A stretch of 64,000 nt of DNA from a virus: positions 25,162-89,161 of the IMG/VR virus record IMGVR_UViG_3300010430_000014; one strand, given 5' to 3'. Below, piece after piece: positions 4,414 through 63,791 of this stretch (position 1 is the stretch's first letter; each line of letters begins with the position of its first letter). A program made the translations under genes and the position numbers. The notes under the pieces were generated by a model. It saw only the letters and a list, made by a program, of their open reading frames with translations. It ran no database searches and had not been told where the DNA came from.

Positions 4414-4443
4414 AGCAGGGGATTGAACTCTTGATCCCCTGCT
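4414..4443 (+). promoter_or_regulatory. Perfect hairpin before the exonuclease gene
   Basis: AGCAGGGGAT (4414-4423) and ATCCCCTGCT (4434-4443) form a 10-base-pair perfect stem; three further pairs, two of them G-U, can close the 10-base loop to a tetraloop. No T-run follows, so it is not a standard terminator. The right-arm core ATCCCCTGC is repeated at 4477-4485, inside the first codons of the next gene, giving an alternative pairing that would trap the ATG at 4464. Confidence 0.6.
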
Positions 4444-4463
4444 TATTATCTCATGGTGATAAC

Positions 4464-6035
4464 ATGACTTTTTATTATCCCCTGCCTCAATCAAAACAGA
4501 CCACAATTAAATATGATTGTGAAAAATGTGGACTGTATTCAAATACCAAATTAGAAACCCCTTTCTTTGAACCTATAATTGGAGAAAATTACAATGGATT
4601 GGTTATATTAGGACAGCAACCATCTAAAGATGATGATTTTAAATCAATTCCATTTTCAAATAAAAGAGCGCAATTAGTTAGAGCAACAGCATTTAAAAAT
4701 GGAGTTAATCTAAAAAAAGTAAGTGCATTTGTATATGCATTGCAATGTCATTCAGGAAAGAAAACTACTGATGTTCAATATAGATGTTGCCGTGAACGAT
4801 TAAAAACTCAATTAGAAGAATTAAAACCAAAGATGGTTATCTGCTGTGGAGAAATGGCATTTAAATCATTATTCGATCTAAAGAACAAAATCCCTCCAAC
4901 AAAACTCAGAGGAAGATTAATACCTAATTTTGAATTCAATTGCATAGTATTCACTCTACTTAATCCAAATGATGTTTATTCCTTTGACCGTCAATACTCA
5001 ATTAAATTAGATATAAAACGTGCATTAAAATTTTGGGTTAAGTATAACAAACGTAAAAGTGTCAATCAATTACTTGAAGAACGTAAAATTCTAAAAGATA
5101 CTCATATAATGGAAATCACAAACCCTGGAGAATTAGAAGGTTTGTTTTATTGTATTGGTAAAATGAAAAGAATAGCACTTGACTATGAAACAACCAATGT
5201 AAAACCATATGATAAATACTTTGAAATTACTCATATTCAATTCGGTAATGCTAATAATGGATGGGTAATTAATGAATCACTTTGGAAGAACTATCCTGTC
5301 TGGAAATTAATTAAAGAATTTATGCGTCATTTTTTAACAGATCCATCAATTGAAAAGATAATCCAGAATGTTAAGTTTGAAGAAAATTGTAGTCGATGGG
5401 TTTTTGGTATTGATAAAATAATAAATACTCAAGATCCAATGCTTGCTACTCATGTGATTGATGAACGTAGAGGATGTACTTCATTAGATTTTCAAAATTT
5501 AATTAGATTTGGAATTCCTCCTTATTCAGATACAGTTAAATCTTTTCTTAAAAAGAAAAACAAAGATGATAAACGTAATCGAATTCGACAAGCACCATAT
5601 GATGATATGATTACCTATGCCGGATTAGATGTAATTACAACTTTTCATAATTGGCTTTTCATTGAAAAAATATTACCTATTGCTTATCCTCAAGCTAATT
5701 TCGATTACCAATTTCTACATAGAGGGCATCAATTGTTTTCTAATATGACACACAAAGGAATCAATGCAGGAAATGATGAACTGGAAGAAATTGAAACTAC
5801 TTTAGTAAATCATATGGAAGATGTTTTAACACGTATTACTCAAATTCCTGAGTTTATTGAATACAACAAATATCTGGAAGACAAAACCAATCTTAAAAGC
5901 ACAAGCAATAAACAATTAAAAACACTTTCGATTAAAATGAAAGGAGATGGAAAATATGAAAAATCAATCGATAATGATGCAACAAACAATAATGAAAAAA
6001 AGAAAAAACCAATTAGAAGAAAGTTATCATTTTAA
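4464..6035 (+). CDS. UDG-like domain fused to PolA-type 3'-5' exonuclease
   Basis: 523 residues. Residues 19-170 resemble family 4 uracil-DNA glycosylase: Cys19, Cys22, Cys95 and Cys108 or 109 can bind an iron-sulfur cluster, but the usual GEAPG and final HP motifs are replaced by GQQPS and NP, so glycosylase activity is doubtful. Residues 235-400 are a DnaQ-like proofreading domain with all three Exo motifs: LDYET (Asp240, Glu242), NVKFEEN, and YAGLD (Asp389). Residues 410-500 look like the start of a polymerase thumb, then the chain stops with RRKLSF. The polymerase itself is a separate gene at 6621. An in-frame TTG at 4431 lies in the hairpin; ATG 4464 is preferred. Confidence 0.85.
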   Translation: MTFYYPLPQSKQTTIKYDCEKCGLYSNTKLETPFFEPIIGENYNGLVILGQQPSKDDDFKSIPFSNKRAQLVRATAFKNGVNLKKVSAFVYALQCHSGKKTTDVQYRCCRERLKTQLEELKPKMVICCGEMAFKSLFDLKNKIPPTKLRGRLIPNFEFNCIVFTLLNPNDVYSFDRQYSIKLDIKRALKFWVKYNKRKSVNQLLEERKILKDTHIMEITNPGELEGLFYCIGKMKRIALDYETTNVKPYDKYFEITHIQFGNANNGWVINESLWKNYPVWKLIKEFMRHFLTDPSIEKIIQNVKFEENCSRWVFGIDKIINTQDPMLATHVIDERRGCTSLDFQNLIRFGIPPYSDTVKSFLKKKNKDDKRNRIRQAPYDDMITYAGLDVITTFHNWLFIEKILPIAYPQANFDYQFLHRGHQLFSNMTHKGINAGNDELEEIETTLVNHMEDVLTRITQIPEFIEYNKYLEDKTNLKSTSNKQLKTLSIKMKGDGKYEKSIDNDATNNNEKKKKPIRRKLSF

Positions 6036-6621
6036 AGAAGAATTAGGTTCTCATTCATTTATTTACAAAGGAAAGAAAGCATTTATTTTAAACATAAATG
6101 AAAATATAACATTGATTAGTTCTTTTATGAAATATAGAAAAGAACTTTCTGATAGAACTAATTTAATTCATCAAAATAAATCAGTTAATTTTGATGATTA
6201 TTATAAATTCTTATTAAATTGTATGGGAATCATTGGTAATATGCTTGATGATGAAAAAATGGGATCTATTACTGCTTATTTAGATCATATTTGGAATGGT
6301 ATAAATAAAATAATAGAAAATAAAGATATAACTAACTTTGCAAAAGCTGTGGGAGAAATATCAGACATAATTACAATGATTGATTTTGTAACTGAAAAAA
6401 GTTTAAATAAAATAGATCAATCAGATATTAAACTGGCAATTGCTCAAGCTGCCATTAATGAATATAATCCTAATCTGGAAGTTCTTGATGTTCTTGAAAT
6501 CACAGATGATGGATCAATTAAAAGATTAAAAATTAAACAAAGTGAAATGGATAAACCTGAATCAAAAGAACAACAATATGATCTTAAACATATGATACCA
6601 TTGAATACAAAGGAAATCTAA
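5956..6621 (+). CDS. Unknown protein encoded between exonuclease and polymerase genes
   Basis: A 221-residue, mainly helical protein with no recognised family. It overlaps the end of the exonuclease gene by 80 bases and its stop shares a base with the polymerase start (TAATG), so all three are probably translated in a coupled way. AAAGGAG at 5940-5946 fits ATG 5956 better than ATG 5947. Near the C-terminus it has KRLKIK, close to terminal motifs of several neighbours. A role as a bridging subunit of a split polymerase is a hypothesis. Confidence 0.7.
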   Translation: MKNQSIMMQQTIMKKRKNQLEESYHFKEELGSHSFIYKGKKAFILNINENITLISSFMKYRKELSDRTNLIHQNKSVNFDDYYKFLLNCMGIIGNMLDDEKMGSITAYLDHIWNGINKIIENKDITNFAKAVGEISDIITMIDFVTEKSLNKIDQSDIKLAIAQAAINEYNPNLEVLDVLEITDDGSIKRLKIKQSEMDKPESKEQQYDLKHMIPLNTKEI

Positions 6622-7832
6622 TGATTAGTGAAGCAGACTTTAATTTCAATCTTAGATCTAATCCACAAATGCAGGAATTCTTATATGAATTTCTTGGATT
6701 GACTCCTATTACAGAACCTAATGCAAAAACAGGTAATTATAAAACAGATGAACCGACAATCATTCATTATGCAGAAAATGAAAATATTGAATTCTGTAAA
6801 TTGTTATTGCAATATAGAAAACTTAACAAAGCATTGAATACTTATATTGCAGATTTAAAAAGAAATATATCTGTACATGACAATCGCATTCATCATGAAT
6901 TATGGTTGAATATACCTGAAACCTATCGATCAAGTTCATCTGATCCAAATTTACACAATCAACCTAAACATGGTGATATACTCCCAAATTTAGCTTGGAA
7001 AATAATTAGAAAAGTATTTATTCGATTAGGTACAGATTGGTTTTTATGTGAATTTGATTATGATGGTGCAGAAGTTAAAGTTGCAGGTATGTTAAGCAAT
7101 GATCCACAAATGATTGAAGATCTAAACAATGATTTAGACATGCATTCACATTGGGCAATTAGATTATTCGGAATTAAAGGATTGTCTTATACACAAATAA
7201 AAGAACAACATGAAGTAGAGAGGTTTTTAGCCAAAAATAATTTCACCTTTGCAAATTTCTTTGGTGCAGGATTTAAATCAATTGCAGAAGAAATGCGAAA
7301 AAATGATTTTTATAAAAATTATATTCATTCAATTTACAATCAACGTGCAACAAAATTAGAAACATTCGATACTTACTTTGTTAATTATTCAATCAATCAT
7401 ATACAAAAGTGTCAAAATCAATTTTGGGATAGATACACTGTTTATAAAAAATGGCAAGAATTTTTAATTGACAGTTATTACAAAAAAGGATATGTAGAAA
7501 ATCCTTTTGGATTTAGAAGAAGATATCCATTAACTTATAATGAAGTAATTAATTTTCCAATTCAGTCTTCTTCATTTTTATTATTACTTGATTCTTTAAT
7601 TCAAATTGAAGATGAACTGATGAAAGGAGGTTGGGAATCACATTTAATCAATCAGATTCATGACTCAGGTATGGGAAATGTCTATAAGTATGAAGCAGGA
7701 GATTTCATTGATATGGTAGATAATAAAATGATTTATAAACCTCATTTACAATGGACTACCAAAGTCAAAATGAAAACTGATTGGGAATTCGGCAAAAACT
7801 GGCTCGATATGAAAAAAATTAAAACCAATTAA
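6621..7832 (+). CDS. Family A DNA polymerase, polymerase domain only
   Basis: 403 residues covering the palm and fingers of a PolA-type replicative polymerase. Residues 8-27 match the thumb element FNxxS..Q, SSSSDPNLHNQP (104-115) is the conserved pre-motif, and motif A is DYDGAEVKV (Asp146, Glu151). Motif B has Arg201, Lys205 and FFG (213-215), and NFPIQSSS (311-318) precedes motif C, HDS (347-349). Catalytic aspartates are present; motif C has Ser instead of the usual Glu. There is no exonuclease domain, which is encoded separately at 4464-6035. The protein should copy phage DNA in complex with that product (inference). Confidence 0.9.
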   Translation: MISEADFNFNLRSNPQMQEFLYEFLGLTPITEPNAKTGNYKTDEPTIIHYAENENIEFCKLLLQYRKLNKALNTYIADLKRNISVHDNRIHHELWLNIPETYRSSSSDPNLHNQPKHGDILPNLAWKIIRKVFIRLGTDWFLCEFDYDGAEVKVAGMLSNDPQMIEDLNNDLDMHSHWAIRLFGIKGLSYTQIKEQHEVERFLAKNNFTFANFFGAGFKSIAEEMRKNDFYKNYIHSIYNQRATKLETFDTYFVNYSINHIQKCQNQFWDRYTVYKKWQEFLIDSYYKKGYVENPFGFRRRYPLTYNEVINFPIQSSSFLLLLDSLIQIEDELMKGGWESHLINQIHDSGMGNVYKYEAGDFIDMVDNKMIYKPHLQWTTKVKMKTDWEFGKNWLDMKKIKTN

Positions 7833-39096: not shown

Positions 39097-39768
39097 TTAA
39101 TTAAAATGTAATAATGTTTTAGCAAGACCTGCACCAGATCTTGTTTCCAACACATGTCCAATTTCACAAAAATGTTTATCAGTTGCAAAAGGTGCAGATG
39201 GAATAGCTTCAGATAATGCTTGTCCTGAAACTTCTCCAGTATCAGTAGTCAATCCAGTTCTTGCTAATTGTCCTCTGGTAGTACTGCCCCAATAATATAC
39301 ATCAGCTATTCCAGATACAACAATCCAAGCTAAACTTCCATCTGCTATTCCATCTTCATAAAATACTCCTATACAAGAAGGGGCATCAATTGGCACAAGA
39401 ATGACTGATTCATTATTTGAAGAATCACTTGTAACACAATATCCTTTAACAGAATTACTACCTGTTTCATTAGTCAATTGAACAGCTAATCCACCTTCCG
39501 GTGTAAATATTGCATTACCATTAAGCTGATTAACTACTTGCCATGAACTATTATAATAAACTTTTAACTGATCATTTCCTGTATCAAGCCAATGCATACC
39601 TACTGTCGGTGTTACATCAGGCCAATTGGTTGCATGTCCTGGTGGATTATCCCCAGGAAATCCAAGCAATGCTGCTTCAAGACGATCAGCATTGTTATTT
39701 AATTCTTCATCGTATCTTAATGTGCCATAAGCAGCTTTTGAAAAATAAAATGCTGTTGTGTATGCCAT
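39097..39768 (-). CDS. Tail fibre-associated protein
   Basis: 223 residues. The N-terminus (SKAAYGTLRYDEELNNNADRLEAAL) and GMHWLDTGNDQLKVYYNSSWQ resemble phage fibre proteins; the rest is a beta-rich domain with GLTTDTGEVSGQALS, as in proteins located at fibre ends. It is joined by TAATG overlap to the gene before it. Confidence 0.55.
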   Translation of the reverse strand: MAYTTAFYFSKAAYGTLRYDEELNNNADRLEAALLGFPGDNPPGHATNWPDVTPTVGMHWLDTGNDQLKVYYNSSWQVVNQLNGNAIFTPEGGLAVQLTNETGSNSVKGYCVTSDSSNNESVILVPIDAPSCIGVFYEDGIADGSLAWIVVSGIADVYYWGSTTRGQLARTGLTTDTGEVSGQALSEAIPSAPFATDKHFCEIGHVLETRSGAGLAKTLLHFN

Positions 39769-40517
39769 TATTCAAAATCTCCTTTATATAAAGAAGCAGT
39801 TATATCTAAATATTTTGCAGGCGACCACACATCATTTATGTCTACCTGATAAACTTCAAATCTTAAATTTGGTTCATAATATCCATTATCCGTTGTATTC
39901 ATTGAAACTGTGTATGCATACTGAGCAGATCCATCAGGATATAATTTATTCACAATAGTAATAGTATCAGTCCTAAGAGCAGCACTATCAGAAAGACGTA
40001 TAACTTTAACTTTAAATTCTTTAAGCTCATCAACTACATCCCCTTCTCCATAAGTTACTGTCTTTCCATATGGGGCAACTCCATAACCATAATTTAATTT
40101 TTTAGTTCGTGTTCTCCATCTTAACTGATAATCCATTTCCATATAAACATACCCACTATCAGCAAAACCTATATTTTCATCCATCTCTACATATATATCC
40201 ACAGTTTCAGAAATAATATCATCTAATCCTAACGCTTCAATGATCTCTGCTCGATCATATTGATATAATGTATCATTTAAACCAAGAATCTCTGTAATGC
40301 TCTCAGGTAATATAAGTGTCTGTACATCTCCTAATCCAATAGTATCAGTAAAAGACTCCTCAGTTATTGGAATAAGCAAATCACCAAGGCCAAGAATCTC
40401 ATCTAATTCTTCATATCCTATATACTCATAAGAAAGAACATCATTCAATCCAAGAGTTTCTTCTAAATATTCAATTTCTGGTAATTCTGCTCCACCAACA
40501 AACTTTAATACCTTCAT
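39768..40517 (-). CDS. Tail protein with GLxD repeats
   Basis: 249 residues. The first 130 contain six repeats of about 18-20 residues with the core LGLND or IGLGD (ETLGLNDVL, EILGLGDLL, TIGLGDVQ, EILGLNDTL, ALGLDDII, NIGFADSG). A beta-rich domain (residues 130-249) follows. The same core, VEYLFENLGLNDALS, opens the C-terminal LDALL region of the 1740-residue tip protein, linking the two repeat types. Confidence 0.6.
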   Translation of the reverse strand: MKVLKFVGGAELPEIEYLEETLGLNDVLSYEYIGYEELDEILGLGDLLIPITEESFTDTIGLGDVQTLILPESITEILGLNDTLYQYDRAEIIEALGLDDIISETVDIYVEMDENIGFADSGYVYMEMDYQLRWRTRTKKLNYGYGVAPYGKTVTYGEGDVVDELKEFKVKVIRLSDSAALRTDTITIVNKLYPDGSAQYAYTVSMNTTDNGYYEPNLRFEVYQVDINDVWSPAKYLDITASLYKGDFE

Positions 40518-41693: not shown

Positions 41694-44600
41694 CTATAAC
41701 ATATTATTATTTAAAATCATCATAATTGAATCTTCTTCTACATCACTTATTAAAATAGCATCAAGATCAGTATCAATAGTTGATCCTGTTTTATTTAATA
41801 GTGCATCTAACTCAGTAACAACTGAAAGAAATTTTAATATAGCATCTAATTGAGTAGTAACTATTTCTTTTCCTTGTAATAAAACATCAAGATCAGTGGA
41901 AATTATTTTCGATTCCGTTAACATAGCATCTAATGCTGTTATAACAGAATTTAATTTTTTAATTAAAGAATCTAACGAAGTATCTAATGTTAATCCTGGT
42001 TTATTTAATATAGCATCAAGCTCAGTAACAATTCCCACTATATACAATATAGCATCCAGTTCAGTTGAAACAGAATTTAATTTTTTAAGAAAAGAATCCA
42101 ATGAAGTATTAATTGTTAAACCAATTTCATTTAAAAGAGCATCTAAAGAAATTTCTTCAGTTAATCCTAATCTACTTAACAATGAATCTAATGAAAGAGA
42201 AACTAAATCTTCCCCATATAAAATAGCATCCAGTTCAGTTGAAACTGGCGTTAATTTTGATACTAAAGCATCTAATAAAGTAGTAATAAAATCAATAGAA
42301 GATAAAGCATCATTCAAACCTAAATTCTCAAATAAATATTCAACTTCTGCAATTTCACCAATAGGAATATGAATCGATTCAGGAAAATAAGGCAATACAC
42401 CATAACCCACTATATCTATATCTGCTGATGGGGATATATCCACACCTACAGTTAAACCATGAATTGTAAATGATGATGCTTTAAAAGTTTGTGTTGTTCC
42501 TTCCCATCCTAAAGGAACTTCATAAAAGACTGTTGCATCAGATCTTAACTTTATATAAAGCTCATCATTTTCTATTACATGAGCAACTTGATCTGTATCT
42601 TTATATCCTCTTATTACATTAGTAAAAGCGTGATTAATGGTATCAATACCATGATAGTACATTAATTCATTTTCTATCCAGATAACCCCCTGAGAAGGAA
42701 ATGAGCCTGTCAGAGTTGTATTATCATAATATATCGTGGTATCATTTATTCCTATATCCTGGGCCAATAAAACAGAAGACACCGTTTCATTTACAACAGC
42801 TATATATTCATATTCAGTTCCTACTTTACGATAAATTCTTGCCCCGACAAAAAATCCACCATCTCCTTCAGGAGCATCAAAAGTGAAATATAATTTACCA
42901 GATTCAATATCCTCCTTAACTTCAAATCGTTCAACACCATACGGTACATATGGTTGAGGAAAACCACCACGACCATATCCATTTAAAACAGGAACACCAT
43001 TATCATGATATGTATATGGATTAAATTCTTCCAATTCAAATTTAACTTCAAAGTCAATTAATTCATCCATAGCTATTATTCTAAACCACTTATTTACCCA
43101 TCCAGTAATTTCATGGGTAACTCCTATTATCTCTCCCATACAAAGAGACATTCCCATTATATCAGTTTCAAATGCACAGATATGTATTTGATAATTCCAT
43201 TGATCAAGAATTCTTTGAGCCATACGTCCTGCCTGTGTAGCTCTTTTAATTCCATGCATTTTATAAAAATCAATTTTTTCTTCTTCTTCTAATACATCTA
43301 ATCGATATACATCTTCAACTTCAGCAACATCTTTTCTGTAATCTAATAACCTATTTTTAAATTCAATCCTAACTTTATTAGGTCTTCTTAAATATGATTT
43401 TTCTGCAAATGTAAAACTCCCTTCTCTTATATTATCTTTCCTTAAAGTAAATTGTTTTGCATCAGGCCAATAATCTTTTATACCATATCCCATATCTATA
43501 TAAGTAGATGTTTGTTCAATGATGACATTTGTTTGACCATCAGGATGATTCCAATGCTCCATTACCTCACCATAATCAATATCATCTCCCTTCCAATAGT
43601 TATCGGGATAAGCAGAAAAATCGGCATATATTTTTGAATAATCATCTGATTCTTGATTACTTGTAAATTGTGCTGATCCTTTTCCAAAATAAGCAACAGG
43701 TGTTTCATCCATATTAGGTATTATTAATTTATAAAGATAACCATCAGGCCAAGTACAAGGAGATATAAACCCTTGACAAGTAAGCAGTATATCTTGAATT
43801 ACATCATACATTTTTTTTGCTTGATCATAACATTGAGAAAATTGAAACCTCCGTTCTTTTACTTCAATGATTTCTCTCGGAGTATATATTTTTGCATCAA
43901 TTGATTTTTTACAAATAGAATCAGCATTAGAATAATCTAACTTATTAGTTAAACCATCTTGAAAATATTTTGGATCAGTATAATTATTCCAAAAATCCCG
44001 AATAATACTTGGAGGAGACTCATCACAATAGTACCATAAACCTGATCCATTTCCAAAAAATCCAGTTTTTGTATGTTTAAAAGTTGCACTCGCACCAATT
44101 CTATTCCACTGATATTTATAACCACTTTCTGCTTCTATTGGATATTTGGAAATCATGTACAACTCACCTGCCGGATTACTTTCAGAAGGAGGTATAAATT
44201 TCCATGCTTCATGCCGACCTGCTTGCCATGCAGTAGATCTTGTTATATAAAAATAAATATCATCTCTGACTCCATATTTTCCTATCTTATAACTACTTTC
44301 ACTTGAAAAACTACCCAAATCCATCGGCATGTATAATGGGCCTGTTGCAACTAATTTACGATATAATACTTTTCTAATACTTCTCCGGTCAATATCCAAA
44401 CCATATTTTGTAGCAGAAGCATATACTTGTTTATTTGAAAATTTTCCATCACCTAATTTAAGAAAATAAGTTCCCTGTTCACAAGCACTATTATATCCAC
44501 CAAAACTATCATAGCTTCTAAGTAAAGAATACCAAACATCTTCATATTGCTCAGTGGAAAAATCCCATTCTTTAACTGAAGTAGTTCCCATATAAATCCA

Positions 44601-46916
44601 TTGTGGTGCATGACCTGCTGCATACTGATTTCTTCTATTAATCTGTTCTTCAATGCCTGTAGTAAAATCAATTATATATGTATAAGCCTGTTTCCACGTT
44701 GGATAAGATGCACCATGAGAATAAACAAATGCTTGTTTATCAGTTGCACATGCATATACTACTATTGATGCACACCATATAGCTTGAGTAAAATAAGTAC
44801 CTATACGTGTTCTTGCTGCATCAAATGGTTCAATTACTCCAGTGTCTTTATGAATTTTCAAACAAACATGGTGTGAAGCTGCTCCTCCAAAATTTTCTCC
44901 TATATTTCCTGGTTGATAAGGCCAATCATTATCTTCTTCAGAAAATCCCAAATTAAGAAAAGTCTGAGTATAATCATAAGGATCTTGATCTAATGTAGGA
45001 TTTGTTATGGATGTATCATAGTCATTTGAAATTCGATCAAATCCAAAACAAATTCTTGAACCAGGAGTAGGGGTTGCCCCCAATGGAGATGATAAAGTAA
45101 CTTTTGTTCCATCTATTGCTGATATTGTTGATCCATAAATCCATTGATTAATAAAATGCACACGTTCCCATTGCTTGCCCCCTCCATAACTCCAAGGAGA
45201 AACAGGAGGAACATTACAAATTATTTCTGTAGATGTACTTCCTTCTCCCACTATTGCATAATCCGTTACGTGTTTAGGATATTTACATACTTGTACACGA
45301 TTACCCGAACTTGGAAATGCTGCAAACTCACCATCCACATCGATATAAGTACTTGTCTGAGTTATAATTTCCCTCCATAAATCATAACCATTTTGAGATA
45401 AAGAAGCATAACATTCTTTCCAATAATCATTAGGATATTGGGAAAAATCAGCGTACACCCTTGAATAAGTATTTGCACCTGCTACAATTGATCTCGTATC
45501 ATATAAAATAACATCCGTCATTACTTTTGCGCCAAAAAGATAAATATAATCTTCCCCCACCACCATACTTGAAAAATAATATCTTGGATTACTATTTTCA
45601 TTCTCTCCTGACGGATTACTAAATTCCTCATCATACAAAACAGAATGTACTCTATATTCTGGATCATCTAAATCATGATAATACAAATCAATTTTTGCCC
45701 CATACTCAGCATGATGATGTGCATATGTACCTGCATTGTACCAATTTCTAAATGTTAAAATATAAGCTCTATTATCTTTAACATCAGTCGCTTGTAATTT
45801 CGATCCTCCTTTTGCTACATTATCATAAAACCATTGATCTATATTGTCTATTTCCCATATTTCATAAGGATGATCACTGGCACAATGTCTAATTAAACGT
45901 TCACCAGGATCACAATAAGTAATTCCATAACCACCAAGAGCAGCACCATAACCATACCACATTTTATTTCTTCCATCTCGACAACCCCAATAAGTTGTCA
46001 TATCTGGATGTTTATATATTATAGATGGAAGAAGATCTTCTTGTAAATAATTAACACCATTGCCAGGAGTAGCAACTCCTCCCTTCATCGATTCAGGACT
46101 ATACCAAACACGATCTCTATTCATTTCAACTGTAAATGTAGGAAATACATTTAATTTACCCATTTCAAAATTACTTGGGTTCATTTCCTCCATATTTGCA
46201 AAATCAATGGAAAAATTAGATTGTTCAGGAGTAGTTTGTAAAGAAGTAAAATCAGCGATAAATCCTTTAAAATAAAATACTGTATTATCTTTTACAGGTT
46301 GATTAATTAATCCATCTACATTAACTTCATTATGAAAACCACCTTGACCACCATCAAGATAAGATAAAGGATAATAAGGATCTAAAGCATCATCATAATT
46401 TTCAAACATATCACTAAGCATCATCCAAAACCAAAAAGGCTTTTCATTAAATCTTATAACCCCTATCTCATAACCTGTTTCTGAATAACGACCTGAAAAA
46501 TTAACAGCAAATTCAGCCCAATGAGCTACTTTACTATCACTCATCATAGTAAAAAATTCTTGCCAAGCTACTCTACTTCCTGCATCACCTACATAGGGCA
46601 TATCACTGGCATTATAAATTCCAAAAGTAGCTTTATTCAAATAAATCACATGACCAGGACATATATCAGTACCAATTACATCCGGTACAGGATCTATTCT
46701 TGATCGTTCTAATTTATAATCAGGATTTCTATAATCTTTTACTTTTGGTGGATCAGGCTTAAATATATACCCCCCAATAGCCATGCCTATCTGCATTCCT
46801 GGGTATCCACCAATAATACCACCAATAATACCTCCGGCAATTGTACCTATAGTTTGTTTCTTGGTACGACTACCTTCACTTAAATCCATACTTTGTGTTG
46901 ATTGCTGTTGCCCCAT
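41694..46916 (-). CDS. Large J-like tail tip protein with propeller-like insert and LDALL tail
   Basis: 1740 residues. A Gly-zipper stretch (GGIIGGIIGGYPGMQIGMAIGG, about 29-50, low polarity) opens the protein. Core parts match the 744-residue paralogue at 46916, but about 690 residues (roughly 295-985) are inserted, Trp/Tyr-rich and propeller-like. A module YADFSxYPxxYW...QTSTYID occurs twice, once in the insert. Thirteen LDALL-type repeats fill the last 200 residues. It is the probable central host-contact protein. The start overlaps the paralogue's stop. Confidence 0.75.
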   Translation of the reverse strand: MGQQQSTQSMDLSEGSRTKKQTIGTIAGGIIGGIIGGYPGMQIGMAIGGYIFKPDPPKVKDYRNPDYKLERSRIDPVPDVIGTDICPGHVIYLNKATFGIYNASDMPYVGDAGSRVAWQEFFTMMSDSKVAHWAEFAVNFSGRYSETGYEIGVIRFNEKPFWFWMMLSDMFENYDDALDPYYPLSYLDGGQGGFHNEVNVDGLINQPVKDNTVFYFKGFIADFTSLQTTPEQSNFSIDFANMEEMNPSNFEMGKLNVFPTFTVEMNRDRVWYSPESMKGGVATPGNGVNYLQEDLLPSIIYKHPDMTTYWGCRDGRNKMWYGYGAALGGYGITYCDPGERLIRHCASDHPYEIWEIDNIDQWFYDNVAKGGSKLQATDVKDNRAYILTFRNWYNAGTYAHHHAEYGAKIDLYYHDLDDPEYRVHSVLYDEEFSNPSGENENSNPRYYFSSMVVGEDYIYLFGAKVMTDVILYDTRSIVAGANTYSRVYADFSQYPNDYWKECYASLSQNGYDLWREIITQTSTYIDVDGEFAAFPSSGNRVQVCKYPKHVTDYAIVGEGSTSTEIICNVPPVSPWSYGGGKQWERVHFINQWIYGSTISAIDGTKVTLSSPLGATPTPGSRICFGFDRISNDYDTSITNPTLDQDPYDYTQTFLNLGFSEEDNDWPYQPGNIGENFGGAASHHVCLKIHKDTGVIEPFDAARTRIGTYFTQAIWCASIVVYACATDKQAFVYSHGASYPTWKQAYTYIIDFTTGIEEQINRRNQYAAGHAPQWIYMGTTSVKEWDFSTEQYEDVWYSLLRSYDSFGGYNSACEQGTYFLKLGDGKFSNKQVYASATKYGLDIDRRSIRKVLYRKLVATGPLYMPMDLGSFSSESSYKIGKYGVRDDIYFYITRSTAWQAGRHEAWKFIPPSESNPAGELYMISKYPIEAESGYKYQWNRIGASATFKHTKTGFFGNGSGLWYYCDESPPSIIRDFWNNYTDPKYFQDGLTNKLDYSNADSICKKSIDAKIYTPREIIEVKERRFQFSQCYDQAKKMYDVIQDILLTCQGFISPCTWPDGYLYKLIIPNMDETPVAYFGKGSAQFTSNQESDDYSKIYADFSAYPDNYWKGDDIDYGEVMEHWNHPDGQTNVIIEQTSTYIDMGYGIKDYWPDAKQFTLRKDNIREGSFTFAEKSYLRRPNKVRIEFKNRLLDYRKDVAEVEDVYRLDVLEEEEKIDFYKMHGIKRATQAGRMAQRILDQWNYQIHICAFETDIMGMSLCMGEIIGVTHEITGWVNKWFRIIAMDELIDFEVKFELEEFNPYTYHDNGVPVLNGYGRGGFPQPYVPYGVERFEVKEDIESGKLYFTFDAPEGDGGFFVGARIYRKVGTEYEYIAVVNETVSSVLLAQDIGINDTTIYYDNTTLTGSFPSQGVIWIENELMYYHGIDTINHAFTNVIRGYKDTDQVAHVIENDELYIKLRSDATVFYEVPLGWEGTTQTFKASSFTIHGLTVGVDISPSADIDIVGYGVLPYFPESIHIPIGEIAEVEYLFENLGLNDALSSIDFITTLLDALVSKLTPVSTELDAILYGEDLVSLSLDSLLSRLGLTEEISLDALLNEIGLTINTSLDSFLKKLNSVSTELDAILYIVGIVTELDAILNKPGLTLDTSLDSLIKKLNSVITALDAMLTESKIISTDLDVLLQGKEIVTTQLDAILKFLSVVTELDALLNKTGSTIDTDLDAILISDVEEDSIMMILNNNML
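41703..42300 (-). repeat. LDALL repeats, 13 units, in the tip protein C-terminus
   Basis: About 13 coding units of 13-15 codons with the consensus (S/E/D)LDA(L/I)L..., for instance ELDAILYGEDLVSL and SLDALLNEIGLTINT. They are the same repeat type as in the 1281-residue protein at 59946. Counted by eye. Confidence 0.75.
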
Positions 46917-49150
46917 TATGCTATTGTAACTGCCTTTGTTGGAGAAGAAGCAAAATTTGCTGCCAAATTATGAATTGTCACCGATACACCTTTCACTGTC
47001 CAAATCTGACCAACTTCACTATCTTCAAAAGTAATAAATTCAGTATTAGTATCTTTCAACATACAATATTTATCTATTGTGTGTGCAACGTTATTTGTTC
47101 CTCTGGTACATCCAGTAAATTCATAATCGGGATCACCAGAAATTCCTGTATAAGTAATTAACTCATCTTCAATCCAAAAAGAACCTGAAGATGGAAATGA
47201 TCCGTATAAAGTAGAATTATCAAAAGGTATCGTTGTTACCGTATCATCAATGCCTGAAGCAAGTTTTACTGATGGTGTCACTTGACCAACAATTTTTTTC
47301 CATACCCAATCACCACCACCTACAGACACATATACTTTTGCTCCTACAAAATAATTATTATCATCAGGACGTTTAAATAAAATATAAATTTTATTCTCAG
47401 TAAGATCCTGCACAACATAAAAACGTTCAACTACATCAGGAGCAACATAAGGAGTTGGAGTAGCATTATCATCTACTGCTGTTACTTTAGGAATAGTATC
47501 ATTATAAACATTTGCATTATATTCAAAACAGGTAAATTTAATTTCATCGTTTTCTAATTCTTCCATTCCAATTATTCTAAACCATTTTGAATTCCATCCT
47601 GTTTGAATATGACTTATTCCTATAATATCACCAATAGCATGATAATAGCCTTGCATCCCTGTAATAAATTCACACCAATTTCTACTATATAAAGATGTAT
47701 CTGTAAAAAATTGAACCATTCGCATTGCTTGTGATTTTCTTTTTATCCCTCCTAATCTTACAGTTCTTAATTTTGTTTGCTCTCCAAGATCTAAATGAGA
47801 TTCTTCAAGATCTTTTTCTACAGCATCCCAAACATATTCATTTGTAAAAACATCATTTTCATCTTTAACTTTTCTTGACATATATTCAATTCTAAATTTA
47901 TTTGATACTTCAGAATCAGCACTATATTTAAAACCAAATGACGATTCTTTAATATTATCTTTTACTATTTCAAAAGGATCATTAAGATTTGGGGAGACTG
48001 AAAGATCTTCAAATAAATCAATATATGTTGAAGTCTGATCTTTAACTACAAATTTATATTCTGCTCCTGATATAGTTATTTTTCCTTCATCTCCAAACCA
48101 ATACAAATCAAGGTAATCAGAAAAATCTGCATAGAGTCTACTTACTGTACTTGATCCTCCTGCCACAAATTGATCTGTTGTTCCATCACTAAAAAAAGCA
48201 CAAGGTTCTTCATCTGCATTTTCAATAAGAGGTTCAAGTTTCCCTTGTCTTAATCGAATAATACCTCTACAAGTAAGCATTATATCAGTAATAATATCAA
48301 ATGACTTTGTTCTTGCATCAAAATAATTTGAATATCTAAAACGTGGTTCGTTTACAGGAGTATCATCCCAATCAATTATTTGAACTAATTCATCACAATA
48401 ATCTGATGCTATTTTCCAAGGACTACCTACTGTATCTGGATCTCCATTAAAAAATTCTGTTCCTATTTGTGTTCCCCATCTTGTATCAGTTAAAAAATTA
48501 TAAACAGCACGAATAGGATTTGCATCTTCTTCTCCTGATTCTATATTAAATCCTTTTATTTCAGCAGCAATATTAGGTAACTGTTGAAGAATCTGCCCCT
48601 CTACTTTTAAATGAACTAATGTATAAGCAGAATATTTGAAATTTATTGCTCCAAGAGCTTTATCTGCTTGCCAAGCAGCTATTGTAGAATCAATTGATTG
48701 TCCTGCCGATCCTACATAAGAAGTAAAAGATGCCGTATAACCTTCATCTGACATTGTTCCGGCACGTTTATCATCAATATAATATTGAACAAAAGAATCT
48801 ATTTCCCCTTCACAATGGACTACTGCAAAATCTGCTTCCATCCCAGGCGACCATTCGGGATTCTTTCTTGATCCTTCATTAAAATAATCAGATTTCAATT
48901 GACCGACCCAAACAACTCCACCATAAGATTTTACTTGTCCAAAACATAAAGGTACTGGAGTGGATGCCACAAATGAATTCTTACCCAAATCTCCCAAAGG
49001 AGGAGGAGGAGGAGCATTAGGTGGATCGATCCATAAACCAAGCTGCCCACCAATAGCCATACCTATCATTGCCCCAGGATAACCACCAATGACTCCACCA
49101 ATGACTCCACCAACTAACATTCCTACACTTTGTCCAGTTGTTTGCCCCAT
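46916..49150 (-). CDS. J-like tail tip protein
   Basis: 744 residues. It starts with a Gly-zipper hydrophobic stretch (GGVIGGVIGGYPGAMIGM), then phage tail tip (Phage-tail_3/J-like) sequence: VRLGGIKRKSQAMRMVQFF, GDIIGISHIQTGW, and a terminal fibronectin-like part (ERFYVVQDLTENKIYILF). In lambda-like tails J forms the central tip and receptor contact. It directly follows the NlpC/P60 gene, as lambda J follows K and I. The next gene is a larger paralogue. Confidence 0.8.
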   Translation of the reverse strand: MGQTTGQSVGMLVGGVIGGVIGGYPGAMIGMAIGGQLGLWIDPPNAPPPPPLGDLGKNSFVASTPVPLCFGQVKSYGGVVWVGQLKSDYFNEGSRKNPEWSPGMEADFAVVHCEGEIDSFVQYYIDDKRAGTMSDEGYTASFTSYVGSAGQSIDSTIAAWQADKALGAINFKYSAYTLVHLKVEGQILQQLPNIAAEIKGFNIESGEEDANPIRAVYNFLTDTRWGTQIGTEFFNGDPDTVGSPWKIASDYCDELVQIIDWDDTPVNEPRFRYSNYFDARTKSFDIITDIMLTCRGIIRLRQGKLEPLIENADEEPCAFFSDGTTDQFVAGGSSTVSRLYADFSDYLDLYWFGDEGKITISGAEYKFVVKDQTSTYIDLFEDLSVSPNLNDPFEIVKDNIKESSFGFKYSADSEVSNKFRIEYMSRKVKDENDVFTNEYVWDAVEKDLEESHLDLGEQTKLRTVRLGGIKRKSQAMRMVQFFTDTSLYSRNWCEFITGMQGYYHAIGDIIGISHIQTGWNSKWFRIIGMEELENDEIKFTCFEYNANVYNDTIPKVTAVDDNATPTPYVAPDVVERFYVVQDLTENKIYILFKRPDDNNYFVGAKVYVSVGGGDWVWKKIVGQVTPSVKLASGIDDTVTTIPFDNSTLYGSFPSSGSFWIEDELITYTGISGDPDYEFTGCTRGTNNVAHTIDKYCMLKDTNTEFITFEDSEVGQIWTVKGVSVTIHNLAANFASSPTKAVTIA

Positions 49151-57105: not shown

Positions 57106-57429
57106 CTACCCATCGAAAACATCAAAGTCAATATAAAATACCTCTTGACTTTCTTCCGCAGTTACTACTTTTATTTTTATTCTATATTCTTGATTATGTA
57201 CTCCTGCTCTAATATAAGGCTTTAAAATATTTCCCACAGTATATGTACATTTAATAACATCAAGAATAGTAGAGCTTTCATCGGAACCTGTTTCTTTATT
57301 TTTTGCAGTAAAATTTACAGAATTTAAAGTTTCAGTTCCTACCCAACTACTAATATCCAGTTGTGCAAAAAATTGAGAATAAGAGGGCTTTGACTTACCA
57401 ATTTGAAAGTACCTTTCATCATCATACAT
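57106..57429 (-). CDS. Small tail or connector protein
   Basis: 107 residues: YDDERYFQIGKSKPSYSQFFAQLDISSWVGTETLNSVNFTA and an IKIKVVTAEESQEVFYIDFDV end give a beta-sandwich of the type found in phage fibre/tail adaptor proteins. It precedes the chaperone genes. Assignment is by pattern and position. Its start overlaps the previous stop. Confidence 0.55.
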   Translation of the reverse strand: MYDDERYFQIGKSKPSYSQFFAQLDISSWVGTETLNSVNFTAKNKETGSDESSTILDVIKCTYTVGNILKPYIRAGVHNQEYRIKIKVVTAEESQEVFYIDFDVFDG

Positions 57430-57779: not shown

Positions 57780-58079
57780 TTAAATTTTCTCCATTGGTAA
57801 CTGACATATTTTTGCCAAAGCAGGATCTAACCTCCCATCATATATCCGGCAAACTTCAGGTCGTTTTATATAAATTTTACAACCTTCATCTGTTAACTGA
57901 GGACAAGGATGGTAAAGTAAAAAATAAACCCTATTATCTTTAACTGTTATTATTTTTATATTTCTTATTGCAGCAAATTGTTCATACAAATAATATGAGC
58001 CTTTGATCTCAAGATCAAAACTAATATTTTTACAACATTCAAGGCATTCAAGACAAATATTATTATTATTTTTCGACAT
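57780..58079 (-). CDS. YkgJ-type cysteine cluster protein
   Basis: 99 residues. CLECLECCKN (residues 8-17), then CP, C and C toward the end (PCPQLTDEGCKIYIKRPEVCRIYD) reproduce the YkgJ (Fe/Zn-chelating, CxxCxxCC) family. Such proteins often accompany glycan or modification enzymes. Here it overlaps the GT2-methyltransferase gene by 14 bases, suggesting a shared job, such as metal-dependent modification. Unusual inside a tail module. Confidence 0.7.
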   Translation of the reverse strand: MSKNNNNICLECLECCKNISFDLEIKGSYYLYEQFAAIRNIKIITVKDNRVYFLLYHPCPQLTDEGCKIYIKRPEVCRIYDGRLDPALAKICQLPMEKI

Positions 58080-59310
58080 ACCAAATAGTATCGATGGTTT
58101 TAATTTTTAAATTTTTCTTTTTAAAATAATCATCTACTGCTCTCACAACTTCAAGAAATCCAGAAGAATAATCATGACCACAAACAAGTTTTGTAGTTCC
58201 TGGTTCATAATTTTCTAAATCTTCCGTAACTTCTTTATACAAATGACCTCCATCAAAAAAAGTCATTTCAGATTGAAAAGGATCATCCGTAGAATTTAAA
58301 TGCTTAAATGCATTTGTACTGTTCATTTTCAAAACATCTAAATTATTAAAACAAGCAGTATTCCTTTTAAATATTTCATAAATGTTTACTCCATCTTCAA
58401 TTTCTTTAAAAGCACCACGATACAATTCACCACGTTCAGGTAATTGCACAGGATCATCAGTACCTTCAAAATGATCAATGGCAGTTACATGCCCCTCAGT
58501 ACAACCAGAGCATAATGCATGAGTACTCTTACCCTTCCAAGAACCGATTTCCACAATTGATTTCATCCTCTTTGCACTTTGATATAAAAAATTTTGTTCC
58601 CGAACACTCATCCATCCAAGAATATCATTGCAATAATGATAATCCATTGTAAGAGCTAATTGATGATCTAATTTTTTAATTGTTTTCTTTCCAATGTGTC
58701 CAATATCTACATTAGGAACACACGCCATTTCAATACCTTCAAGATTGCATCGATGGCAAAAAGACAAATCCTCACCTAACTCTCTACCATTATCCAATTG
58801 CCAAAAATTAAAAGGTCTTCCAAATTTTTTAATTCGTTTTTCATTAAGAAAATATTTAATAATTTCATTTTTAAAATAAGATACCCCAATAGGTACTCCT
58901 TTTACAAGCCAGGGTTTATTAGGAATATCGTTATCTTTATAAGAACGAAAGGCATAATCAGTTTCCACATTATCCTCTACAAACACAAGTGGAGGATGGG
59001 GAGAACGAACAGCATAATAAAGTCCACCAATAACAGGGGCCAAATCACATTCAATGAGTTTAACAACATCAGGAGGAGAAAACTCCATATCAGTATCCAA
59101 AGATATAAGATCGTATCCTTCCTTTAAAGCGTCATCAAAAAGAGCATTTCGTTGAGAAGAAATTACTGTTCCTTCTTTATACATAACATCCACAAAATAC
59201 CCTTTTTGAGCCAAATGAAAAATAAGGTTTGTAATAGCTAATTGAAATTTAGGTTCTGGTAAATTCTTATAATAAGGAACACCGATCATTATTTTTTTAT
59301 CATCATTCAT
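58066..59310 (-). CDS. GT2 glycosyltransferase fused to class I methyltransferase
   Basis: 414 residues. Residues 1-230 are GT-A-like: MIGVPYYKNLPEPKF, a donor-site SLDTDMEF (DxD near 73-75) and GEDLSFCHRCNLEG. Residues 250-414 are a Methyltransf_24-like domain: IVEIGSWKGKSTHAL, VTAIDHFEG, MTFFDGGHLYKEVTEDL, and CGHDYSSGF. It might build a methyl-capped sugar on a virion protein or other acceptor (inference). It lies between the candidate major virion protein and tail genes. Confidence 0.75.
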   Translation of the reverse strand: MNDDKKIMIGVPYYKNLPEPKFQLAITNLIFHLAQKGYFVDVMYKEGTVISSQRNALFDDALKEGYDLISLDTDMEFSPPDVVKLIECDLAPVIGGLYYAVRSPHPPLVFVEDNVETDYAFRSYKDNDIPNKPWLVKGVPIGVSYFKNEIIKYFLNEKRIKKFGRPFNFWQLDNGRELGEDLSFCHRCNLEGIEMACVPNVDIGHIGKKTIKKLDHQLALTMDYHYCNDILGWMSVREQNFLYQSAKRMKSIVEIGSWKGKSTHALCSGCTEGHVTAIDHFEGTDDPVQLPERGELYRGAFKEIEDGVNIYEIFKRNTACFNNLDVLKMNSTNAFKHLNSTDDPFQSEMTFFDGGHLYKEVTEDLENYEPGTTKLVCGHDYSSGFLEVVRAVDDYFKKKNLKIKTIDTIWYVEK

Positions 59311-59363: not shown

Positions 59364-59858
59364 TTAAGTTTCATCATAAGCAAATGTTAATGTCTCTGGA
59401 GTTAAAGCCCCAGGACTTGCAGTATTTGTAACAGTCATTTGCAAACGAAGATGATCACCATAGTTTCCAGTATCAGTCTTTCCGGTAGTGTCATTTGTTT
59501 GATCCATATCAATAGCTGCACCATCGGTTTTTGTAAAAAGATCTGTTCCAGAAATATCGGCATCCGTCTGAGTTGCAAATGTCTGCAAAGTATCATACTG
59601 AACACCAACACCTGTTCCGAAACCACTTGAACCATCTGAATAGGCACGAAGATTAGTAAGATCAACTGAAGGCGCACCTGTAATATTAGCCCTCAATTGC
59701 TTTGTATAAGAATAATCCGTACCTGCCCCTGGAATTTGCAGACGATCAGCAGTATCAACTGTTGTGTCATCTGCCGATTTAAACCTGACAGTATCACTCG
59801 TTTTGTCTACCCCCTGAGTGTCCGTTGTCATTTCCCAAATTTGAACTGTTGCTGTCAT
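59364..59858 (-). CDS. Candidate major tail or virion protein
   Basis: 164 residues, Thr/Asp-rich, no Cys, strand-rich (VQIWEMTTDTQGVDKTSDTVRFKSADD, LRLQMTVTNTASPG). Its composition and codon use differ from the surrounding genes and are typical of abundant virion proteins. It has a TATAAT box in its own upstream region and AGGAG before the ATG. It may be the tail tube or a decoration protein; position upstream of the chaperones allows the former. Confidence 0.55.
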   Translation of the reverse strand: MTATVQIWEMTTDTQGVDKTSDTVRFKSADDTTVDTADRLQIPGAGTDYSYTKQLRANITGAPSVDLTNLRAYSDGSSGFGTGVGVQYDTLQTFATQTDADISGTDLFTKTDGAAIDMDQTNDTTGKTDTGNYGDHLRLQMTVTNTASPGALTPETLTFAYDET

Positions 59859-59945: not shown

Positions 59946-62900
59946 TTACGTGCCACATCGTTCCAACCCCAACATAAAAGATGGTTTTTCCAACAAACTT
60001 ATCATATCCGGCTTTTCAAGTAATGAAGTAAAACAATATCGAGAATTAGCCAAAACAATTACTGTATAAACAAGAGCATCCATAAAAGTTGATTCGTAAA
60101 AATTACCTTTTAATAAACCATCTAAATTTGTAAACTCAGTTATTTCTTTAACGATTATAGCGTCCATTTGCATTTCTAAAATATCACCGCCATAAAGAAC
60201 AGCATCTAAAAAAACTAATTTCTCTATATCCATTTTTTGCAATAAAGCATCCAACTCAACCGTTTTAGTTATACCCAATGTAACAAGTAATGCGTCTATT
60301 TCTGATGTTAAAGTAAATAATTTAAATATCTGAGAATCCATTACTGCCATTCTTTGAAGATTAACTTCTTGCAATAATGCATCCATAGAAATATTTTTTA
60401 AAATTATCTTTATAAGTAATGCATCTAATACTGATGATACAATATTTACTTTTACAAGCAATGCATCTAAATCTATAGTTGTTATAAGTCCTGTACCTTG
60501 AATCATTACATCCAACGAAGCATAATTTAACAAATCGGGTTTTATCAAAAAAGCATCCAATGATGTTATAATTTGACTTATTTCCATAGAATACAAAATT
60601 GCATCCAATGAAGTTGTTATTAATTTAGATGATTTTATCAAAGCATCTATAGATAAAGAAGTTTCAATGCCCAATTTAATTAAATAAGCATCTAAAGAAA
60701 TCTCCATTGTTCTTGTTTTATTTAATAATACATCCAAAGATAAGGATGCTATTTCATCAACAATTGTTAATAGACCATCCAGGGATATATTTTGTAATTG
60801 TTCTTTTTTAACAATGGCATCCAACGATGTATTTACCTCAATCCCTAATGAAGAAAGAAAAGCATCTAAGGATAAACTTACTGTAATTCCTACTTCATTT
60901 AATAATGCATCCAAATCTGCATCAATCAAAATTGTATCAAATAAAAAAGAATCCAATGAAGTTGATGTTGTTAACCCCATTTCCTTTAATAAAGCATCAA
61001 AACTAAAAGAAACTGTAATTGATTTTTTAAACAAAGCATCTAAAGAAACTCCAATTTCTATATACTGTTTTGTAAGAAGTGCATCTATCGAGAAATCCTT
61101 TACTAACCCGATCTTATTTAATAGGGCATCCAAATCAGTAGTAGTTAAATTTAATTTACTTAAAATTGAATCTAAAGAAGTTGATACTGTTAAACCCAAT
61201 TTATTAAGCAATGCGTCTAAATTAGTAGTAACTAAACCTGCTTGTTCTAATATAGCATCAAGTGAAGATTCAAAAGTCAAATTTAATTTTTGAAGATAAG
61301 CATCCAAGTCTGTAGTAACTAAACCCAATTTGCTTAGAATTGAATCTAATGAAGACTCTGAAGTTAGATTCAATCCTTTTAATAATGCATCCAGTGAAGA
61401 TTCAAAAGTTAAATCTAATTTTTGAAGGTAAGCATCCAGTTCATTGGTTTTTTCTATTCCTAATTTATTAAGTAATGCATCCAAATTAACAGTAACCAAA
61501 CCCAATTTACTTAACAATGCATCTAATGAAAGATCTTCTGTTAATCCTAATTTATTAAGCAATACATCAAAATTAGATTCAATAGTAAGATCTAATCCTT
61601 TTAACAATGCGTCTAATTCATTGGTTTTTTCTATTCCCAATTTACTAAACAACGCATCTAATGAAAGATCTTCTGTTAATCCTAATTTATTTAACAAGGC
61701 ATCTAAATTTGTAGTAACTAATCCCAATTTATTTAACAGGGCATCCAAAGAAGTTGATACTGTTAAACCCAATTTATTAAGTAGTGCATCCAAATTAACA
61801 GTAACCAAACCCAATTCACTTAACAATGCATCTAAAGAAAGATCTTCCGTTAATCCTAATTTATTTAACAGAGCATCAAGGTTAACAAAAATTACATCTG
61901 CCTGTATTAAAATCGCATCTAACGAAATATCAGAAGTTAAATTTAATTTATTAAGCAAAGCATCCAAGTCTGTAGTAACTAAACCCAATTTGCTTAATAG
62001 AACATCTAACGAAATATCAGAAGTTAAATTTAATCCTTTTAATAATGCATCCAAAGAAGAATCCACAGTTAAATTTAATTTTTGAAGATATGCATCCAGT
62101 TCATTAGTTTTTTCTATTCCTAATTTACTAAGCAACGCATCTAAAGAAATAATTTTCATATATGTTTTAACAAGGAATGCATCTAAATCAACAGTAGCTA
62201 AACCCAATTTATTTAATAATGCATCCAATGAAGATTCAAAAGTTAAATTTAACTTTTGAAGATAGGCATCCAAAGAAGAATCAAAAGTTAGATCTAATTT
62301 TTGAAGGTAAGCATCCAGTTCATTAGTCTTCTCTATTCCTAATTTATTTAATAAAGCATCGAGATCAGTAGTAACTAAATTTAATTTACTTAATAGAGCA
62401 TCCAGTGAAGATTCAAAGGTTAATCCTATTTTATTAAGTAGGGCATCTAATGAAGATTCAAAAGTTAAATTTAATTTTTGAAGATAAGCATCTAATTCAT
62501 TAGTCTTTTCTATCCCCAACAAAGAAAGAAAAGCATCCAATGAAAAATCTCTTACAACTAACTTACTGAGCAAAGCATCCAAGTCTGTAGTAACTAAACC
62601 CAATTTGCTTAGAATTGAATCTAAAGATGTATCAATCGTTAAACCTGTAACTTTTAATATTGCATCTAACTCAGTTGTCTTTTCAACATCTAATTTTTTC
62701 AACAATGAATCTAAAGAAGATTCAACAGTAAGATCTAATCCTTTTAACAACGCATCCAAAGAGGAATCAGCAGTTAGATTTAATTTTTGAAGATAAGCGT
62801 CTAATTCATTAGTAGTTAATCCTAATTTACTCAAAATTGAATCTAACGAAAGAGTTTCAATTTGTAAATATGTAAGCAAAGCATCTAATTCTGCTTGTTT

Positions 62901-63791
62901 TTCAATTGCCAATATTTGAAGCAAAGAATCTAAAGAAGCATCCTCAGTCAACCCTACCTTACTTAACAAAGCATCTAAATCAGTTGCTATTGTATATTCC
63001 TTTTGTAATTGAGCATCCAATGATGTTGTAACAGTTTTTAAAATACTCAAAATTGCATCCAATGAAATCTCTTTGGTTTCATCAACTACTTTTAATAAAG
63101 CATCCAATGAAATATTTTCAGTAATTTCCTCAGAAACAAAAGCATCCAATGACGTTGAAATGCTAAGTCCTAATTTATTTAATAAGGCATCCAAAGATAA
63201 AGATATTGTAATATCAGATTGTTTTAACAGAGCATCGAGATCAACAGTTTTTTCAATATCTATATTTTGTAATAAAGCATCCAAAGAAGATGATGCTGTT
63301 AACCCCATTTCTTTTAACAAAGCATCCAGGGATAATGATTCAAAGCCAGTTTCTTTAAGTAAAGCATCCAATGCAATTTCTTTAATTATACCTATCTTAC
63401 TTAATAATGCGTCTAAAGATAATTGTTTTTCAATAATCTCCTGTAATAAAGCATCCAAATTTATATCTTTAGTTTGCATATACACTAATAAAGCATCTAA
63501 ATTTATATCTTCAGATACTATCTTTTTTAAAAATGCATCCATTGCAGCTTCTTCAGTTAAATCTAATTTACTTAAATAAGCATCCAATGAAAGAGTTTTA
63601 GTCTGCAAATATGCAAGCACAGCATCCAAAGATAAAGTAACTGGAATTGTTTTTTGAAGATAAGAATCTAATGATACATTACTTGATAATACCTTTTTTA
63701 ATAAGGAATCTAAACTACTTGCCTCTGTGTAAGTCGTAAAACCTGCACTTACCTCAACGTTCCATATTATTTTATCTCCATGAATACCCAT
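59946..63791 (-). CDS. Giant LDALL-repeat protein
   Basis: 1281 residues. After MGIHGDKIIWNVEVSAGF come about 84 head-to-tail units of mostly 14-15 residues, consensus SLDALLxKLGLTxxx, with only about 60 residues of non-repeat sequence at both ends. The units alternate between types (ELDAYLQKLNLTFES, DLDALLNKLGIEKTN). No family known to me has a function; it could form a regular solenoid or fibre. Its position at the head-ward side of the tail module suggests a long fibre or virion part. The start overlaps the previous stop (TAATG). Confidence 0.75.
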   Translation of the reverse strand: MGIHGDKIIWNVEVSAGFTTYTEASSLDSLLKKVLSSNVSLDSYLQKTIPVTLSLDAVLAYLQTKTLSLDAYLSKLDLTEEAAMDAFLKKIVSEDINLDALLVYMQTKDINLDALLQEIIEKQLSLDALLSKIGIIKEIALDALLKETGFESLSLDALLKEMGLTASSSLDALLQNIDIEKTVDLDALLKQSDITISLSLDALLNKLGLSISTSLDAFVSEEITENISLDALLKVVDETKEISLDAILSILKTVTTSLDAQLQKEYTIATDLDALLSKVGLTEDASLDSLLQILAIEKQAELDALLTYLQIETLSLDSILSKLGLTTNELDAYLQKLNLTADSSLDALLKGLDLTVESSLDSLLKKLDVEKTTELDAILKVTGLTIDTSLDSILSKLGLVTTDLDALLSKLVVRDFSLDAFLSLLGIEKTNELDAYLQKLNLTFESSLDALLNKIGLTFESSLDALLSKLNLVTTDLDALLNKLGIEKTNELDAYLQKLDLTFDSSLDAYLQKLNLTFESSLDALLNKLGLATVDLDAFLVKTYMKIISLDALLSKLGIEKTNELDAYLQKLNLTVDSSLDALLKGLNLTSDISLDVLLSKLGLVTTDLDALLNKLNLTSDISLDAILIQADVIFVNLDALLNKLGLTEDLSLDALLSELGLVTVNLDALLNKLGLTVSTSLDALLNKLGLVTTNLDALLNKLGLTEDLSLDALFSKLGIEKTNELDALLKGLDLTIESNFDVLLNKLGLTEDLSLDALLSKLGLVTVNLDALLNKLGIEKTNELDAYLQKLDLTFESSLDALLKGLNLTSESSLDSILSKLGLVTTDLDAYLQKLNLTFESSLDAILEQAGLVTTNLDALLNKLGLTVSTSLDSILSKLNLTTTDLDALLNKIGLVKDFSIDALLTKQYIEIGVSLDALFKKSITVSFSFDALLKEMGLTTSTSLDSFLFDTILIDADLDALLNEVGITVSLSLDAFLSSLGIEVNTSLDAIVKKEQLQNISLDGLLTIVDEIASLSLDVLLNKTRTMEISLDAYLIKLGIETSLSIDALIKSSKLITTSLDAILYSMEISQIITSLDAFLIKPDLLNYASLDVMIQGTGLITTIDLDALLVKVNIVSSVLDALLIKIILKNISMDALLQEVNLQRMAVMDSQIFKLFTLTSEIDALLVTLGITKTVELDALLQKMDIEKLVFLDAVLYGGDILEMQMDAIIVKEITEFTNLDGLLKGNFYESTFMDALVYTVIVLANSRYCFTSLLEKPDMISLLEKPSFMLGLERCGT
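60040..63720 (-). repeat. Coding tandem repeat, about 84 units of 42-45 bases
   Basis: By eye, about 84 units of LDA-type sequence. Central units are nearly identical at base level (many copies of LDALLNKLG), while those at the ends are diverged, consistent with recent expansion in the middle. The repeat should recombine readily, so length may vary between relatives. Confidence 0.8.

Follow-up and report, generated by a model that had tools for sequence, protein, structure and literature searches.

The DNA analysed here, below called the window, is a stretch of 64,000 nucleotides at the right-hand end of a virus contig of 89,161 bases (IMG/VR record IMGVR_UViG_3300010430_000014). Its most conspicuous feature is a minus-strand open reading frame whose product consists of short repeats over nearly its whole length (Table 1). 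As described in an earlier note made from the same DNA, the unit has the consensus SLDALLxKLGLTxxx. Its 84 copies form one unbroken chain from residue 26 to about residue 1249, with spacings of 15 (46 times), 14 (36 times) and 16 residues (once). In 2000 shuffles of the residues of the protein, the LDAxL motif occurred at most 9 times and the longest chain comprised 2 units, compared with 84 and 84 in the real sequence. There are 209 bases between the start of the array gene and the contig end, which truncates the gene upstream of it. Of this gene, 69 codons remain, and its TAA stop codon overlaps the ATG of the array gene (TAATG), so that the two genes are probably translationally coupled. 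Elsewhere in the window, a DNA polymerase of the phrog_17 family is distributed over two plus-strand ORFs, 4431-6035 and 6621-7832, which match profile positions 471-888 and 898-1237, respectively; between them lies a 224-aa ORF (5947-6621) with no match in Pfam, and the arrangement would correspond to either a split polymerase or an insertion.

Table 1. Features of the window discussed in the text (positions are those of the window)
Feature	Position	Strand	Remarks
249-aa protein with about five LGLGD/LGLND units	39768..40517	-	
Second J-like tail-tip protein, 1740 aa	41694..46916	-	Partial NF040662 match, Phage-tail_3
LDAL array of the second J-like protein, 13 units in its C-terminal tail	41727..42278	-	One relic LGLGD-type unit before, MMILNNNML after
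First J-like tail protein, repeat-free	46916..49150	-	
Probable tape-measure protein, 1833 aa	50851..56352	-	Suggested by length and position
c3, homologue of the GP4 gp77 fibre-tail adaptor (PF23148)	57106..57429	-	
c2 protein, 116 aa	57429..57779	-	Conserved in 23 loci of the module
Small CxxCxxCC (PF03692) protein	57780..58079	-	
c4, glycosyltransferase-like and Methyltransf_24 protein	58066..59310	-	Part of the module in 7 loci
Partner protein c1, 164 aa, no known family	59364..59858	-	43 loci in viral contigs
LDAL-array protein, 1281 aa	59946..63791	-	ORF and translation
C-terminus without repeat, residues 1250-1281, motif SRYCFTSLLEKP..SLLEKPSF	59949..60044	-	Putative anchor; motif in orthologues of seven records
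84 LDAxL units, residues 26-1249	60045..63716	-	Unit list, spacings 14/15/16; shuffle control
N-terminus without repeat, 25 aa	63717..63791	-	Adhesin-like domain at this place in relatives
Upstream gene, 3' end only, cut by the contig end	63791..64000	-	Propeller-like by eye

A sequence profile of the unit was built from 944 distinct units of 14 or 15 residues. The motif behind this profile demands the aspartate of LDAxL; counted without that demand, the aspartate is kept in about 95% of units, and even between very divergent viruses the LDA core persists in about 95% of units. Position 1 of the 944 units is mostly S, D, N, T or E, proline is practically absent from positions 2-8, and position 10 of the 15-residue units is glycine (64%), aspartate (16%) or asparagine (7%), 87% together, followed by a hydrophobic residue. 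Such residue patterns are typical of a helix with an N-cap and a Schellman C-cap, and each unit is therefore probably a short capped helix of two turns followed by a short extended link. The AlphaFold model of 11 central units contains one helix of 7-10 residues per unit (mean pLDDT 61, pTM 0.40), whereas the model of the C-terminal end, which is poor (pLDDT 55, pTM 0.25), fuses the first units into one long helix. The cap signatures favour short separate helices over a triple beta-spiral or a continuous helix, while the two structural models disagree. A Foldseek comparison of a low-confidence model with solved structures gave no fold match (best E=7.7), and the unit may represent a new solenoid or fibrous fold.

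The statement of the earlier note that no described fold or function is known for this repeat agrees with all the databases searched, as Pfam, PHROGs, NCBIfam and the PDB contain no credible match to the array. The best Pfam hit, UBA_6 (PF18039), scores 33.7 bits versus 23.5 when summed over repeats, but membership in this family calls for one stretch that scores alone over most of the 42-position profile, and no single stretch passes, the best one being 22 residues long; six further array proteins gave no match to UBA_6. The hit to PHROG 2737 (E=4.4e-7) is also summed over repeats, and no single stretch passes (35 residues of the 86-position profile); among blocks of arrays, 8 of 46 match this profile, the best at 6.6e-5, and the genome search gave no match to it. 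The match of the array to PHA_granule is again a sum over repeats. Against the PDB, the single sequence found nothing and the best E value of the profile was 0.13. A tblastn search of 50,697 named phages with three different arrays returned no hits. In a control BLAST with the filter on and the same database size, known relatives were recovered at E <= 1e-9, with the exception of the weakest one (L150), so that such relatives would be detectable among named phages, except perhaps the weakest. A literature search for the LDAL motif yielded nothing relevant.

Most pattern hits in bacterial genomes are unrelated low-complexity sequence. The weak relative L150 (NCHQ01000017.1), from a Rhodospirillales MAG, has an LDAL-like array with a tape-measure-like gene a short distance downstream; the array lies near tail genes and looks real, and may link distant members of the family to Rhodospirillales as hosts. 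Another MAG, from Bathyarchaeota (L179, CP070659.1), contains 12 LDAL-like units in an array that adjoins masked sequence and runs antisense inside a GTPase-like gene; this array is not trusted and is possibly a misassembly.

The whole array protein, used as a seed, recovered no relatives in viral contigs, and the successful route to array loci was a pattern of three LDAxL units at the DNA level. At the protein level, searching with the array identified arrays in contigs G010, G012, G013, G014 and G015. Homologues in other virion modules, which the earlier note had called for, do exist: dozens of uncultured phages have related arrays next to the same set of small genes for virion attachment. 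The partner gene c1 directly follows the array in G010, G013, G014 and G015, where its product is 50-71% identical to that of the window. Searching viral contigs with c1 alone gave 43 loci, of which 30 were left after removal of duplicates and weak hits, and an array lies near c1 in about 25-27 of these 30, mostly directly upstream. Of the 26 distinct array contigs found by the DNA pattern, about 22 contain c1, and none of the 21 pattern hits without an array does. The usual order of the module is array, c1, optional c4, c2 (118 aa) and c3, and in several genomes head-tail connector genes come next; the array gene of G012 is located a few genes past a tail-tube-like gene. By synteny, the array gene is an appendage-module gene with an attachment partner, as is asked of a tail fibre or tailspike. 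Close relatives of the J-like protein occur in genomes that have neither array nor c1, such as the 108-kb G008, and the module is thus dispensable. The c4 glycosyltransferase-methyltransferase fusion found within the fibre module in seven loci could modify the fibre. In the window, the fibre module includes the PF03692 protein, and another small Cys-rich protein, c8, is encoded in the module of three other loci.

Neither c1 nor c2 has a match in the PDB, Pfam or named phages. Four c3 orthologues (L089, L090, L091 and L241) pass the PF23148 cut-off of 27 with scores of 28.2-38.6, a fifth (L092) scores 26.9, and the copy in the window, at 18.7, is below the cut-off; the profile of the c3 family matches the tail entry of Ralstonia podophage GP4 in the PDB (8jou_D, E=1.8e-6). 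Since homologues of the GP4 adaptor gp77 (PF23148; PDB 8JOU) are encoded near the array gene, attachment probably works as in GP4. The two systems differ in other respects: no LDAL array was found in GP4, in line with the lack of named-phage matches, and GP4 is a podophage, whereas the genomes with arrays have genes for J-like tail proteins and for a probable tape measure, which points to long-tailed phages.

Orthologues of the array protein have in common the last few units, which align position by position, and the C-terminal motif LLDAIIYSAL..PRYTFxSxLExPxF (G000, G010, G012, G013, G014, G015, L210 and others), while their N-termini are different. At the N-terminus, a Laminin_G_3 domain scores above the cut-off in two relatives (L233 and L215), and beta-helix and BNR-repeat matches under the cut-off are found in two more (L214 and L023). 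The array protein of the window has just 25 residues in this place and no in-chain binding domain. In L203, a propeller-like segment, a junction with a similar TTYT sequence and the array are encoded in one ORF, which raises the possibility that in the present virus the distal part is a separate product, that of the coupled upstream gene. The comparison of these ends suggests that a spacer of differing length joins a conserved C-terminus on the virion side to a distal N-terminus that varies.

A genome-wide search for the LDAL repeat revealed a second site, at the C-terminus of the second J-like protein (Table 1). Four relatives of this protein (L052, L053, L054 and L064; 42-53% identical) have LGLGD units in the C-terminal tail instead, with four to ten recognisable units, mostly of 18-19 residues. 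The C-terminal end MMILNNN-L is common to the window copy and three of the four relatives (L052, L053 and L054), and one LGLGD-type unit (VEYLFENLGLND) is kept directly ahead of the LDAL units of the J-like protein. In view of this relic, an LGLGD array seems to have been swapped for an LDAL array in the same J slot. Both repeat types are present in this virus, given the LGLGD/LGLND units of the 249-aa protein. The LGLGD repeat of about 18 residues, with the core ESLGLGDS in the four relatives and in the 249-aa protein, possibly consists of short capped helices too. The two adjacent J-like proteins are paralogues, the first one matching residues 1019-1506 of the second at 38% (L046). The second LDAL carrier resembles Lambda J and TipJ through its partial NF040662 match and Phage-tail_3; to our knowledge, arrays of LDAL or LGLGD units at the C-terminus are not a known feature of these families.

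The earlier note also described the central units as near identical and the ends as degenerate, and took this for a sign of recent and probably continuing expansion. The trend itself is confirmed, with a mean match to the 12-position consensus of 6.5 in units 1-20, 8.5 in units 21-62 and 5.7 in the last 22, but as a sign of recent expansion it was overstated. For the best copies of four-unit blocks, identity reaches 80-86% at the protein level and 79-84% at the DNA level; for the best copies of eight-unit blocks it is 74-77% in DNA. The longest exact DNA repeat in the array is 52 bases. In the best block copies, 63-79% of synonymous codons are identical, compared with 52% expected at random. 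With such substantial synonymous divergence between block copies, an array that has recently expanded and is still changing is not borne out, and an identity of only 79-84% in DNA implies that the expansion is not recent. Judging from copies such as residues 549-665 and 769-885 of the protein, the array has grown through duplication of blocks of units, some time ago. Pairs of contigs from single viruses are uninformative on length change because the array stretch is identical in the only pairs found. Between genomes, the number of units does differ, as had been anticipated, ranging from 7 to about 120 (about 15-fold).

The explanation that we favour, with moderate confidence, is that the array protein is the shaft, or spacer, of a fibre attached to the virion, with the C-terminus on the virion side and the N-terminal end held away from the particle. 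The interpretation of the earlier note, a fibre or elastic element of the virion module, is partly supported: synteny with the adaptor homologue and the LDAL repeat on the tail-tip J protein argue for a fibre or tether. We infer that the conserved C-terminal segment would be docked on the virion through c1, c2 and the gp77-like adaptor c3, and that the 84 short units, each a predicted two-turn capped helix with a short extended link, would keep the opposite end off the particle. In relatives this end is a domain of carbohydrate-binding type (laminin-G lectin or beta-helix); in the present phage, with its short N-terminus, the binding part may be encoded by the adjoining upstream gene, to which the array gene is probably coupled in translation. 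The LDAL unit also lengthens the tail-tip J protein. Length evolves through block duplication of units, and the type of unit can be exchanged. The sequences themselves show the arrays, the module, the homology to the adaptor, the exchange of cassettes and the differences in unit number.

The strong hydrophobic pattern of the units and their near-invariant L-D-A-x-L, with the aspartate at about 95%, amount to more constraint than a plain linker needs, and no binding domain is fused to the array in this genome. Both observations could be expected if the array were an adhesive surface, in which many near-identical amphipathic units attach with high avidity to a surface polysaccharide or to the envelope of the host, and the number of units sets avidity, not reach. 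This explanation appears unlikely, as the lectin- or beta-helix-type domain ahead of the array in relatives looks like a payload on a shaft, and the exchange of the unit for another repeat on J speaks against a specific binding role there. The position of the array a few genes after a tail-tube-like gene in G012, and of the module next to head-tail connector genes in several genomes, would also fit an element that decorates the tail tube or neck or surrounds it like a sheath, not an outward fibre; however, the adaptor homologue is a fibre-tail adaptor, the LDAL repeat hangs from the C-terminus of J and the length of the array varies about 15-fold, so that we regard this explanation as improbable. 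Finally, block duplication and the wide differences in unit number would be compatible with a coding repeat that has expanded near-neutrally and plays no structural role, but the conservation of the LDA core (about 95% of units, in viruses that are very divergent), the position-by-position alignment of the C-terminal units of orthologues and the strong association with the module make this highly improbable.

A fibre shaft, as favoured here, is in itself an ordinary kind of structure; what is new is the repeat family and the swappable cassette. Repeats of about 15 residues also build the length-tunable shafts of the trimeric fibres of adenovirus (triple beta-spiral) and YadA (15-residue coiled coil). 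The LDAL units have no sequence match to these shafts, and their predicted helices, capped at both ends, differ from a beta-spiral or a continuous coil. The nearest description is that of an extra structural module of Alishewanella phage LSH1, gp34-gp35-gp36, for which a payload, a GP4-like fibril protein and an Ig-fold attachment protein have been proposed; the proposed payload would have a polysaccharide-lyase-like N-terminal domain and has a poorly predicted, possibly repetitive C-terminal part (PMC13243795). This poorly predicted part stands in the place of the array, the likeness being one of layout only.

On a more general level, we tentatively propose, as a possibility that we rate below the shaft itself, that uncultured tailed phages follow a cassette logic. 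Fixed ends, either the core of the tail tip or a C-terminal anchor with its partner and adaptor, would be joined by interchangeable arrays, variable in length, of short capped-helix units of at least two types (LDAL of 14-15 aa and LGLGD of about 18 aa), and reach would be set by the number and type of units independently of receptor specificity. The present analysis provides a genomic context and a testable role for a large family of repeats; phages from the environment carry it widely, but searches of named phage records and structure libraries did not find it. LDAL arrays may explain fibre regions that are poorly predicted, and the three small proteins of the module are likely attachment partners. 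The apparent swap of repeat types in one orthologous slot would represent a natural experiment on what a fibre shaft requires.
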